A DNA stretch of 51,968 nucleotides from Candidatus Edwardsbacteria bacterium (lineage in GTDB: Bacteria; Edwardsbacteria; AC1; EtOH8), in assembly GCA_018821925.1 (NCBI GenBank), contig JAHJLF010000067.1, positions 1 to 51,968 on the forward strand, given 5' to 3'. Both the position numbers and the translations under genes were made by a program. Below, one piece after another: positions 3,555 to 41,559 of this stretch (position 1 is its first letter; every line of letters begins with the position of its first letter). The notes beneath the pieces are model-generated. The model ran no database searches and was not told the origin of the DNA. It worked only from the letters and a program-made list of their open reading frames with translations.

Positions 3555-3714
3555 ACAATCCTAGAATAAAAACCCCTTTGTGTGAGTAAAGAAGCCTGGA
3601 TTCCCGCCTGCGCGGGAATGACACGATGGTCTTACCCCACCAAACACACAAAATGACGCTAAAATATTTAAAAAAACCCCCTTTGTGTCTCAGTGTCTCA
3701 GTGGTTAAAAAGCC

Positions 3715-3811
3715 GGGATTGCTTCACTTCGAAAGCAGCATAAGGTGCCGTCCTCAGTGCAGGCTCTTGTAAGCATCCAATGTCTCCTCGCAATGACGAA
3801 AGCAATGATAG
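3715..3811. repeat. Dispersed 'GATTGCTTCACTTCG' element, copy 2
   Basis: Same ends as the copy at 359-449 (GGATTGCTTCACTTCG ... TCGCAATGACGAAAGCAATGA). It shares the internal block CTCAGTGCAGGCT. The interiors differ, so the copies are old or diverged. Confidence 0.7.
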
Positions 3812-3930
3812 AGTCTTGAAAATCCGTGTCCTCGTAAGTCCCTGGATTCCCGCCTGCGCGGGAATGACACCCAGAAAGAAAACCATTTGTGCCTTTGTGT
3901 CTTAGTGGTTAAAAAACAGGAGGAACCAAG

Positions 3931-5968: not shown

Positions 5969-6492
5969 TGCCGCCCCTACGGGGCTACCGACATGACGGC
6001 TTTACGAGCCTACATACATTGCGCTCCTACGGAGCTACGGAGTTGCATGGAGCATCATAGATGCGACATGGTTGTAACCCCCAAAGACCCGGCATACACG
6101 CCCAGCGTCGTAGACGCGAAATGGAAAACACCAACGGTTAGCATCATAGATGCGCCATGATTGTAACCCCAAAGATCCGGCATACACATCCCAGCGTCGT
6201 AGACGCGGAATGGAAAGACCAACTGGTAGCATCATAGATGCGCCATGATTGTAACCCCAAAGATCCGGCATACACGTCCTAGCGTCGTAGACGCGAAACG
6301 GAAAGATCAACGGGTAGCATCGTAGATGCGACATGGTTGTAACCCCAAAGACCCGGCATGCACGCCCAGCGTCGTAGACGCGGAATGGAAAGACCAACGT
6401 GTCCACATAACACCCCTACAGGTAGCATCATAGATGCGACATGGTTGTAACCCCAAAGATCCGACATGCACACCTAGCGCCGTAGGTGCGGA
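5969..6492. repeat. REP-like hairpin array upstream of Y1 transposase, with about 88 bp tandem units
   Basis: The palindrome GCATC-RTA-GATGC recurs at 6052, 6141, 6229, 6317 and 6425 (periods 89, 88, 88 and 108 bp). Each unit also carries a second palindrome, GCGTC-GTA-GACGC (for example 6105-6117 and 6194-6206), and the linker GGTTGTAACCCCAAAGA. Most GCATC palindromes are preceded by GTA, giving GTAG at the foot. Other 5-3-5 hairpins (GCCCC-TAC-GGGGC, GCTCC-TAC-GGAGC) occupy 5969-6040. No gene is present. Confidence 0.85.
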
Positions 6493-6521
6493 ATGGAAGA
6501 AACCACAAGAAGGAAAGATAC

Positions 6522-6983
6522 ATGGCCAACACCTACACCCAGATATACATCCACACCGTCTTCGCCGTCCGCCACAGGCTGAACCTGATCCTGCCAGCCC
6601 ACAGCGAGGAGATCCGGAAATACATGACCGGGGTGGTCACCAACCTGGGATCGAAACTCATTGCCATCAATAATATGCCCGATCATTTTCATCTGCTGAT
6701 CGGCCTGCAGCCCGAGATATCGCTTTCCGAACTGATCGGCAAGGTTAAATCCGGCTCCTCGGGGTTTATCAACCAGCAACGGCTGGCGCCCGGCCGTTTT
6801 GAATGGCAGAAGGGTTTTGGGGCATTCTCCTATGCACGCTCGCAATTGGACACGGTGATCGGTTATGTAGATCGGCAGCAGGAGCATCACCGCAAAAAGA
6901 CATTCATGGAAGAATATTTGGCCTTGCTGGCTGAATACGGGATAGATTACGACCAAAGGTATATTTTGAAGGAACCGGAATAA
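6522..6983 (+). CDS. IS200/RAYT-type Y1 (HUH) transposase
   Basis: A 153-residue single-domain transposase of the IS200/IS605 TnpA or REP-associated tyrosine transposase (RAYT) superfamily. These enzymes nick and join single-stranded DNA at hairpins. The HUH metal-binding motif is H55-F-H57 in MPDHFHLLI, and the likely catalytic tyrosine is Y115 in VIGYVDRQ, followed by the family's QEHH. Length matches the family. The ATG at 6522 is preceded by AGAAGGA, which favours it over an in-frame start at 6486. There is no TnpB or second gene. It sits between two arrays of REP-like hairpins, the arrangement expected of a RAYT with its substrate repeats. A plain IS200 copy is the alternative. It appears intact. 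Confidence 0.9.
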   Translation: MANTYTQIYIHTVFAVRHRLNLILPAHSEEIRKYMTGVVTNLGSKLIAINNMPDHFHLLIGLQPEISLSELIGKVKSGSSGFINQQRLAPGRFEWQKGFGAFSYARSQLDTVIGYVDRQQEHHRKKTFMEEYLALLAEYGIDYDQRYILKEPE

Positions 6984-6990
6984 TGTTGGG

Positions 6991-7251
6991 ATTCGCCATG
7001 CCGCCCCTACGGGGCTACATACGTTACGCGCCGATGGTGCTACCGACATATCGGCTCTACGAGCCTACAAACATTTCGCGCCGATGGCGCTACCGACATA
7101 CCGGCTCTACGAGCCTACAGGCAAATGGAGCATCGTAGATGCGACACGGTTGTAACCCCCAAAGACCCGGCATACATGCCCAGCGTCGTAGACGCGGCAT
7201 GGAAAGGTCAACGGGCCCACATAACACCCCTACAAGTAGCATCATAGATGC
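6991..7251. repeat. REP-like hairpin array downstream of Y1 transposase
   Basis: A succession of 13-nt hairpins with a 5-3-5 plan: GCCCC-TAC-GGGGC, GCGCC-GAT-GGTGC, GGCTC-TAC-GAGCC, GCGCC-GAT-GGCGC, then GCATC-GTA-GATGC (7130-7142) and GCATC-ATA-GATGC (7239-7251). The last one lies about 20 nt upstream of the ribosome-binding site of the gene at 7284, so it may be part of that gene's leader. No gene is present in this 300 bp gap. Confidence 0.8.
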
Positions 7252-7283
7252 GGAATGGTTGTCCCGAACCAAGGAGGAACCAA

Positions 7284-13514: not shown

Positions 13515-14004
13515 AAGTTTAAAGAATAAAAGGCGATTTGCGTATTCAGTATACAGGAGACAGGAGTCAGTAGCTGAGGGCATACAAATCTTGTCACACT
13601 GAGAAGACCTGCTTGCCCGGCAGGTTGAATGTGTGCGCATAGAATCCAGAATATTGAATGTAGAAGATCGTCATCCTGAGGATGGTATTCATTCTGATTG
13701 ACGAAGGATCTGCGCCGGGTGATAGAGATTCTTCGGTTTGGCAGGCAGGGTGTGGGTCTCAGAATGACAATAACGTTAAATAAAACCCTTTGTGTCTTTG
13801 TGCCTTGGTGTGAGGTAAAGAAACCTGGATTCCCGGTCAAGCCGGTTGAGTACAATAGCCTGGATTCCCGCTTGCGCGGGAATGACAATATAGTCGAAAT
13901 GCGCCTATGGTGTGGAATGACGAAGAGTCCATAAATAAGACCGCGCTGTGTTCTCTGTGGCTCTGTGTGAGCAAAACCAATGAAAATATTTTGAGCAGGC
14001 TGAA
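13515..14004. repeat. 490 bp gap filled with dispersed repeats
   Basis: No gene is seen. It holds an ATCCTGAGGATGG palindrome region (about 13670-13715), a GATTCTTCGG...CAGAATGACA element (about 13726-13769), 'ctttgtgtctttgtgccttggtg' low-complexity sequence, a broken GGATTCCCGG copy (13826-13850), and a full GGATTCCCGCTTGCGCGGGAA hairpin (13860-13887). Confidence 0.8.
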
Positions 14005-15735: not shown

Positions 15736-16040
15736 TAATTACTTCGGCGTTCAAATTGGCCAATAACCCATGTTGTCATGCCCATGAATATGGGCATCCA
15801 GAAAAGGTCTGGATTCCTGCTTTCGCAGGAATGACCAGCCTCCGCCAAGGCTCCGACTGGCAGGCACTAAAAAGTATATTATAAATCTCAGCGCCTCTGC
15901 GGCAAAACAACCCCCTGGATTCCCGGTCAAGCCGGGAATGACACGTAGTCCATATAAAATCTCCGCGCCTCTGCGGTGAAAAACCCTGGATTCCCGCCGG
16001 TGCGGGAATGACATATTGCTGTATTTAGTCGCTGGAGGAA
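15736..16040. repeat. Expanded copy of a composite palindromic element
   Basis: The gap has no gene. It starts TTACTTCGGCG, carries the CCCAT/ATGGG hairpin (15776-15799), then three GGATTCC...GGAAT hairpins (15809-15836, 15915-15943, 15986-16013) separated by 'cctctgcgg' repeats. It closes with 'atattgctgtatttagtcg', which resembles the right end of the elements at 36243 and 41413. It therefore looks like one such element enlarged by extra hairpin modules. Confidence 0.6.
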
Positions 16041-36233: not shown

Positions 36234-36844
36234 TCCGAGCGATTAATACACCGGCAATAAAATAGATCACTAAACCTTACCCGTTTTTTGAACGTCCTTG
36301 TTGTCATGCCCGTGAAAACGGGCATCCACGTCTGGATTCCCGCTGGAGTTTATGCTGAATGCAATGAAGTGCGGGAATGACACATTGCGCTATTTATCCG
36401 CCGAAGTAATAATTGAGGTCAGTGGGAATTCAATCACCGCTAAGACGCTAAGGTCGCAAGAACTTTTCCTTTCGTCATTCTGAGCTCGGCGGCGTGCCAT
36501 GCAAACCGAAGAATCTATATCGGCGCAGATCCTTCAAAGGTTGTGCCAGATGCCGCCCCCAGGATGACGCGCCGCAAATTGTCACCACTTCGAAAGTTTT
36601 ATTTTTGCCAACCTCAGTGCAGGCTCTGAGATCACTACACGCCTTGCAGGCTGGACGGGCGACAATTGTCATCCAACAAACTGTTATGCCTCGAAGTGTA
36701 CTCAGGATGACAAGATATTTTAAACCTCAAAGAACACCAAGGGATAGATCGGTTATAGAGAATCACATAATCTCTTTGCGCCTTTGCGGTAAAAAAGGCC
36801 ACCATTAACGGCTTTCCTTAAAAATACATAGAGAGATAAAGAAT
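36234..36844. repeat. 611 bp gap filled with nested dispersed repeats
   Basis: I see no gene here. It contains the composite element at 36243-36412 and a pair of 'caccgctaagacgctaag' / 'ctttgcgcctttgcggta' inverted ends (36433 and 36799). Inside the pair are a TCATTCTGAGC...GAAGAATCT element, a GGATGACGC element and a CAGTGCAGGCTC block. No promoter stands out before the gene at 36845. Confidence 0.75.
36243..36412. repeat. Composite TIR element, copy 1
   Basis: The left end TTAATACACCGGCAATAAAAT and the right end (minus strand) TTATTACTTCGGCGGATAAAT are imperfect inverted repeats. Inside are the CCCGT-gaaa-ACGGG hairpin and a GGATTCCCGC...GCGGGAATGACA hairpin with an enlarged loop. The copy at 41413-41559 shares more than 50 bp of left-half sequence, including CCGTTTTTTGAACGTCCTTG. 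Confidence 0.75.
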
Positions 36845-41412: not shown

Positions 41413-41559
41413 TTATTACCCCGGCAATTAAATAGGTGAATAATCCTTATCCGTTTTTTGAACGTCCTTGTTGTCATGCCCGTGAAAACGGGCATCCATG
41501 CCGGGATTCCTGCTTTCGCAGGAATGACACATTGCGTTATTTATTTACCGAAGTAATAA
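41413..41559. repeat. Composite TIR element, copy 2
   Basis: The left end TTATTACCCCGGCAATTAAAT and the right end (minus strand) TTATTACTTCGGTAAATAAAT are imperfect inverted repeats of more than 20 bp. Inside are CCCGT-gaaa-ACGGG (41472-41498) and GGATTCCTGC-TTTC-GCAGGAATGACA hairpins (41503-41529). It is 147 bp long and non-coding, and fills the gap before 41588. Confidence 0.75.

Follow-up and report, generated by a model that had tools for sequence, protein, structure and literature searches.

What kind of element occupies positions 41413-41559, and how is it related to the solitary hairpins that recur in other intergenic gaps? The window (the whole stretch of 51,968 nucleotides that was analysed) is contig C67 of genome G000, an assembly of 2.44 Mb in 95 contigs and 99.4% complete. 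The original prediction had described a composite miniature element (MITE) with copies at 36243-36412 and 41413-41559, imperfect terminal inverted repeats and two inner hairpins. Both copies are present at these coordinates and align over their whole length with 76% identity (BLAST, E=1.6e-32). Their terminal repeats read TTATTACCCCGGCAATTAAATA and TTATTACTTCGGTAAATAAATA, and each copy contains the hairpins GTCAT-GCCCG..CGGGC-ATCCA and GGAT-TCCTGC..GCAGGA-ATGAC. The borders given for 41413-41559 hold for the element as such, its core narrowing to 41416-41556 if the flanking TA is the target. The second copy is the longer one because its REP 2 tip is long. The features of the two copies are as follows.

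41413-41559, plus strand: the MITE copy of this study, 147 bp, with the core given above
41414-41415, plus strand: left TA, presumed target-site duplication, read from the sequence (30 of 33 copies have TA on both sides)
41416-41436, plus strand: left terminal inverted repeat TTACCCCGGCAATTAAATAGG, from copy comparison; the G000 form with TTACTCC agrees with an Azotobacter IS630 end at 21/23 positions
41473-41497, minus strand: REP 1 of the head-to-head pair, GTCAT-GCCCGTGAAAACGGGC-ATCC (hairpin scan and copy comparison)
41504-41528, plus strand: REP 2, GGAT-TCCTGCTTTCGCAGGA-ATGAC (hairpin scan and copy comparison)
41536-41556, minus strand: right terminal inverted repeat (sequence and copy comparison)
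41557-41558, plus strand: right TA, read from the sequence
36243-36412, plus strand: second MITE copy of the window, 170 bp (BLAST and copy comparison)
36303-36327, minus strand: REP 1 of the second copy, with the standard tip (hairpin scan)
36334-36381, plus strand: REP 2 of the second copy (hairpin scan)
36344-36370, plus strand: tip cassette TGGAGTTTATGCTGAATGCAATGAAGT of the second copy; the same tip occurs in MITE copies L015 and L023, with backbones 80-84% alike

Folded as DNA, the 41413 copy gave z=-4.4 (0 of 200 shuffles as good) and the 36243 copy, taken over 36243-36381 only, z=-2.6 (2 of 200). A search of Rfam with the MITE returned 0 matches.

The 147-bp query matched 44 places in its own genome (BLAST), with 7 whole-length places among the top-ranking matches and many matches that cover the hairpin part only. 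Eighty stretches were read from G000-G004, G008 and G009, the share of G000 being 20 of the 44 places and a few more. After 16 truncated, contig-end or REP-only entries had been dropped from the 49 of the orthology screen, 33 copies with both ends remained in four congeneric genomes (G000, 14; G003, 10; G001, 6; G002, 3), so the genome-wide search for further full copies had found many. These copies are 126-347 bp long and all 33 share one plan: terminal repeat, left block with TTGTCAT at its end, hairpin 1 (mostly GCC..GGC), ATCCAGGCCTGGAT, hairpin 2 (TCC..GGA), ATGACACATTGCG and terminal repeat. Both window copies are absent from the orthologous place in 3/3 congeners and other copies are common to two or three species, which suggests that the family moved both before and after the species split. 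At three loci (L013, L017 and L020) the MITE immediately follows a stem that resembles a terminator and has a run of T at its end; the AT-rich tail of a terminator may be a favoured target of the MITE.

The TA dinucleotides at the two ends are mostly preceded by T on the left and followed by A on the right. Elements of the IS630 family, as described for ISY100, insert into TA and duplicate it (PMC2170065). No base-exact empty site was found at the orthologous places in the congeners, because the intergenic DNA has diverged too far, and an exact empty site sought via a flanking repeat was found in 0 of 10 genomes; the TA could therefore belong to the element itself. An empty site suggested by three copies with a common flanking repeat was rejected, as these copies are orthologues.

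The partner of the MITE was sought through its ends. In the congener G003, 13 contig ends, identical over 94-98 bases, lead into the terminal repeat of the MITE, with 93% identity over the 28 shared bases. We read these identical ends as marking a multicopy element at which the assembly broke off; only its last 94-98 bases were seen in G003, with no complete element. Just inside the repeat there is an open frame, the peptide of which ends in LQKRPHHVRSYFKHPKASYAA-stop. Searched against 72,556 plasmid records, this peptide matched eight, all annotated as IS630 family transposase (8/8); with 21 residues the match is weak alone (best E 0.05), and in the one record inspected in full, from Azotobacter, it runs to the stop codon. 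Terminal repeats around the Azotobacter gene were then sought de novo, without use of the MITE. The repeat obtained, TATTAATCCGGCAATAAAATAGG, is identical to the MITE end at 21/23 positions, the next best place in 3.7 kb reaching 14/23. The IS630 ends of Roseomonas agreed with the MITE end at 18/23 and 17/23 positions and those of Acidithiobacillus at 16/23 and 16/23; six other IS630 elements inspected (L171 and L173-L177, including IS1471) have other ends, the best at 13/23. The search for a transposase with matching ends thus led, through the G003 peptide and the Azotobacter end, to the IS630 family.

Among the G003 contig ends L100-L109, L097 and L098, at least 13 ends with one identical element end were counted, which suggests that an IS630-type element recently underwent a burst in that species. 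A search for the right end of the insertion sequence in viral contigs gave 0 matches. Two IS630 matches in G009 were considered as the partner and rejected, since they belong to another element, the ends of the one that was read, L157, being CAGTCCATAATAGTATAGAC. L157 (contig C19 of G009) is a different IS630-type element with a similar C-terminus, ending in SYAA, and a frame apparently broken into two ORFs.

No IS630 transposase was detected in the host genome by a DDE_3 domain search, which found the domain in 1 of the 10 genomes searched and in none of G000-G003. Therefore, nothing shows that the MITE moves today, and the mobiliser of the window copies either has been lost or lies in the unassembled part. 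The ends and the partner element of the congener suggest mobilisation in trans, in which an IS630-family transposase would bind the TTACTYCGGCAAWTAAATAG ends, excise the MITE and insert it at TA. The element resembles the IS630/Tc1-mariner elements and their MITEs, as described for ISY100 (PMC2170065), in its matching ends, the TA on both sides, the apparent lack of coding capacity and the high copy number; it differs in carrying a REP pair as cargo and in having a partner known from one end. The original reading of the element as a composite MITE is supported. As far as it can be read from sequence, the element at 41413-41559 is a MITE of the IS630/Tc1-mariner type with a head-to-head pair of CGTC-type REPs as cargo.

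The cargo also occurs alone. In the window the hairpin pattern GGAT-[stem of at least 5]-ATGAC is found 16 times; across 60 dinucleotide shuffles the average was 0.28 and the highest count 2. The window has lone REPs, as had been claimed for other gaps, and the element at 15736-16040, which had been thought to be of this type with extra hairpins and does contain the REP pair, with further REPs on its right.

53-77, 86-110, 123-147 and 281-305 (region 53-305), no strand assigned: lone REPs without MITE ends (hairpin scan)
3598-3622 and 3844-3868 (region 3598-3868), plus strand: lone REPs (hairpin scan)
13827-13886, plus strand: lone REP region (hairpin scan); in G001 and G002 the corresponding gap between genes has REPs with other tips
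15736-16040, plus strand: older, diverged element of this type, with the REP pair at 15775-15799 and 15811-15835 and further REPs at 15917-15942 and 15988-16012

Since the counterpart gaps of 13827-13886, matched by the neighbouring gene only, hold other tips, a change of tip may not need the MITE. The left end and first hairpin pair of the 15736 element are found at the orthologous place in 2/3 congeners (G002 and G003) and are absent in G001. Between its extra REPs (window 15880-15985) a short repeat, ATCTCMGCGCCTCTGCGG, occurs at about 15886 and about 15960.

CGTC REPs are recognised by a CGTC tag (TGTC or CCTC allowed), an 8-bp stem from AT, a loop of 4-5 and a CCA tail, and the neisserial dRS3 is listed among them as CGTC-1 (Di Nocera 2013, PMC3733652). 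In our copies TGTCAT or a similar tag stands at both outer feet in the copies listed (L132 has GTCAA at one foot), the stem consists of AT and 6 further pairs, with standard pairing in 26-32 of 33 copies per position plus G-T, and a CCA tail is present in the mid segments. The short forms have a four-base loop (REP 1, 19/33; REP 2, 17/33), which the long-tip forms lack, and the two REPs are head-to-head, with the tag ends outward, in 33/33 copies. The earlier suggestion that the lone hairpin follows the dRS3 pattern holds at the level of the superfamily, to which dRS3 belongs as CGTC-1 and whose type the inner hairpins fit (PMC3733652). The TGTC/CGTC tag, the 8-bp AT stem, the four-base loop of the short forms, the CCA tail and the head-to-head dimers are common to both; the hairpin bodies of up to 164 nt and the enclosure of the dimer in IS630-type ends set our element apart, and its host taxon is apparently outside that survey (PMC3733652). 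Since REP dimers inside longer palindromes were reported for two species, namely CGTC-1 dimers inside 41-bp palindromes of Halothiobacillus neapolitanus and GTAG-15 dimers inside TATAGGA..TCCTATA palindromes of Anabaena variabilis (PMC3733652), the composite is not without precedent. These are direct counterparts in which a REP dimer is nested in a longer inverted repeat; the survey, as far as its text was available to us, describes for them neither a partner transposase family nor tip exchange, whereas here the outer repeats match IS630 ends.

The hairpin bodies are far more variable than the rest of the element. REP 1 has a body of 16 nt in 19/33 copies and of 39-164 nt in 14/33, and REP 2 one of 16 nt in 17/33 and of 39-81 nt in 16/33. 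Several tips recur, among them TGGAGTTTA, after which comes one of various small hairpins; ACTTGTCCTCGACATAGATCGGGG; and GACCTCTCCC..GGGAGCGGTC. The backbones of L083 and L093, and likewise those of L080 and L086, are 100% identical and carry different tips, and an identical 27-base tip is found on backbones 69% alike. In 37 of the 44 pairs whose backbones agree at 92% or more, a hairpin differs in length by at least 8 bases. Changes in the stems affect both partners of a pair (REP 2 pair 5: G-C 20, T-A 6; REP 1 pair 4: C-G 24, A-T 8).

Comparison of the flanks of the 49 entries yielded five orthologous sets, to which the 15736 element added a sixth (F): set A from G000, G001 and G003, set B from G000 and G001, sets C, D and E from G000 and G002, and set F from G000, G002 and G003. 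At least one tip differs between species in 6/6 sets. Gaps of at least 6 bases fell inside the REP pair in 15/16 cases and in the flank in one, counted over 10 pairwise alignments that are not independent (three each in A and F). In set D, CTTCATTGCATTCAGCATAAACT in REP 2 is present or absent and the other tip is kept; the same 23-base tip is also present or absent in set A, an unlinked locus. In both sets the short state has bases of its own, GCGAAGGC, where the long state has other sequence, with no visible target duplication. In set A each of the three species has its own sequence in tip 2. Set B shows a change of the REP 1 tip together with the adjoining stem bases (GCCATT..AATGGC versus GCCCGT..ACGGGC), the 68-nt REP 2 being kept. 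In set F, 64 bases have been gained or lost between G002 and G003; between G000 and G003 the stem and tip differ without any gap, their length being the same. Both hairpins differ in sets C and E; because both tips differ, the two gaps of set C could be placed only roughly.

Orientation changes at orthologous sites as well as tips. In sets A and C the interior is inverted between conserved terminal repeats: the interior alignments, reversed versus direct, scored 56.2 versus 15.4 (G000 with G001) and 72.6 versus 13.4 (G000 with G003) in set A, and 59.2 versus 14.6 in set C. Variants specific to one of the two terminal repeats have not changed ends (GGTAATAG for set A, CTTCGGGAAATAAATA for set C), and what happened in these two sets is an in-place inversion between the terminal repeats, not a reinsertion. 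An in-place inversion has reportedly been described for Correia repeat enclosed elements of Neisseria (Elbeyioglu 2017), which are likewise MITEs with TA-type ends. The terminal repeats of Correia elements, TATAG, differ from those of this MITE, and we know of no REP pair with exchangeable tips in them.

Our main reading, to which we assign a probability of about 0.72, is that an IS630-type MITE with a REP pair as cargo changes in place after insertion, by exchange or resizing of tips and by flips of the interior. The orthologous sites show that REP tips are swapped or resized with the neighbouring stem bases still pairing, and that the interior flips between the terminal repeats. As the cause of the tip changes we infer template switching during replication or short-tract gene conversion between stems dispersed in the genome, where a nascent strand halted at one stem may anneal to the same stem elsewhere, copy the tip and return via the other arm. 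Whether REPs evolve by gene conversion was reportedly raised as a question in the review of Higgins et al. 1988, and a process of that kind is suggested by the tip changes at orthologous sites. Template switching in replication is described as creating and maintaining hairpins (PMC8794818). It is about an even bet, in our judgement, that REP hairpins act as exchange sites, with the stems as short homology arms, the tips copied in place between dispersed hairpins, a genome-wide pool of tip cassettes, and the interior flip as the same process on the outer arms.

The main rival explanation is that tips grow by insertion, small mobile hairpin elements targeting the loops of REPs and absence being the older state. 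This would fit the whole REPs nested in REP tips (L113, L118, L091 and L092) and the several tips that are themselves hairpins, and IS elements known to target REPs have reportedly been published. However, insertion alone would not replace a tip together with its adjoining stem bases, as seen in set B; the second tip of set A differs in sequence among its three species; and the short state of sets A and D has its own bases and no visible target duplication. We therefore consider this explanation unlikely, with a chance large enough to be kept in view.

A different matter is where the lone hairpins come from. The original prediction saw the MITE as their source and the lone hairpins as remains of decayed MITEs. 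Lone hairpins do share sequence with those of the MITE, truncated copies exist (L016, L020 and L021), and in Coxiella truncated MITEs of the QMITE2 family are described as coming to resemble REPs, that is, as decaying to REP-like pieces (PMC10969869). The distribution argues otherwise. The MITE query matched 19 of 61 genomes: four belong to the genus, six to the family and nine lie outside it, and in these nine the matches cover the REP part alone, with no MITE ends, among the matches listed. A pattern of the 18-base REP arm and tip linker GATTCCNGCTGGAGTTTA was found in 13/386 genomes, of which 6 lie outside the family and 7 belong to it, and the reversed control in 0; in the loci read, GATTCCNGCTGGAGTTTA is followed by different small hairpins. 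Since REPs exist without the MITE in unrelated genomes, the MITE is an improbable source of the hairpins and this claim did not survive, its chance being very small; single local cases in which a MITE decayed to a REP-like hairpin may nonetheless have occurred. Most simply, the REP pair existed first and was then acquired by a MITE of the IS630 type.

Artefacts of assembly or strain mixing are a slightly poorer explanation still, and one that we regard as highly improbable for the tip differences. The genomes are metagenome-derived and partly fragmented, several G003 contigs end within these repeats, and a misassembly between repeats could mimic a tip swap; yet the differences in sets A to F are also seen between assemblies of 9-10 contigs (G001 and G002) and G000, they lie at the tip, with stems that still pair, and the same tips recur in unrelated genomes.

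Just as improbable is a reading of the whole element as a REPIN that a RAYT (Y1 transposase) mobilises, with the outer terminal repeats as passengers. In its favour, the two REPs are arranged head-to-head as they are in a REPIN, and the window contains a Y1 gene (6486-6983). Against it, the unit shared by the copies reaches the outer repeats and their TA, CGTC REPs are reported, as far as the survey goes, without a dedicated transposase (PMC3733652), and RAYT was rejected as the mover because neither of the two Y1 genes of the genome has GTCAT hairpins at its flanks, which carry other repeats. REPINs are likewise two inverted REPs with compensatory changes, as far as the description in PMC3116915 goes; here no associated RAYT was found and the pair is enclosed in MITE ends.

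The two Y1 genes have repeats of their own kind around them. The window gene (165 aa) is flanked by GCATCGTAGATGC-type repeats over 6035-7260, its flanks at 6035-6500 and 6985-7260 being rich in GCATC(A/G)TAGATGC / GCGTCGTAGACGC palindromes, which are probably its own REP family, and it has a 78% identical relative in an Edwardsbacteria MAG. The second gene (L139, 3664-4221, contig C50 of G000) is flanked by GGCACAAATTCTATTTGTGCC palindromes, which are not of the GTCAT type.

REP dimers within larger palindromes were already known; what came as a surprise here is that the tips behave like cassettes at orthologous sites. Our search, made at the level of titles and opening parts of abstracts and with subscription journals largely outside it, found no publication on Edwardsbacteria repeats or on REP-tip exchange at orthologous sites. 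How REP hairpins spread and vary, above all those of the CGTC type, for which no transposase is known, is a long-standing question, and the present family bears on both of its parts. With respect to spread, the IS630 family is a probable mobiliser for REP pairs that have none of their own, which gives them a hitch-hiking route. With respect to variation, if tip exchange is true, the MITE fixes the surroundings and each exchange can be read at orthologous sites. Orthologous MITE copies provide a fixed backbone on which tip changes and inversions can be dated and counted, so the question of REP evolution becomes testable by comparison of genomes at the level of the genus.
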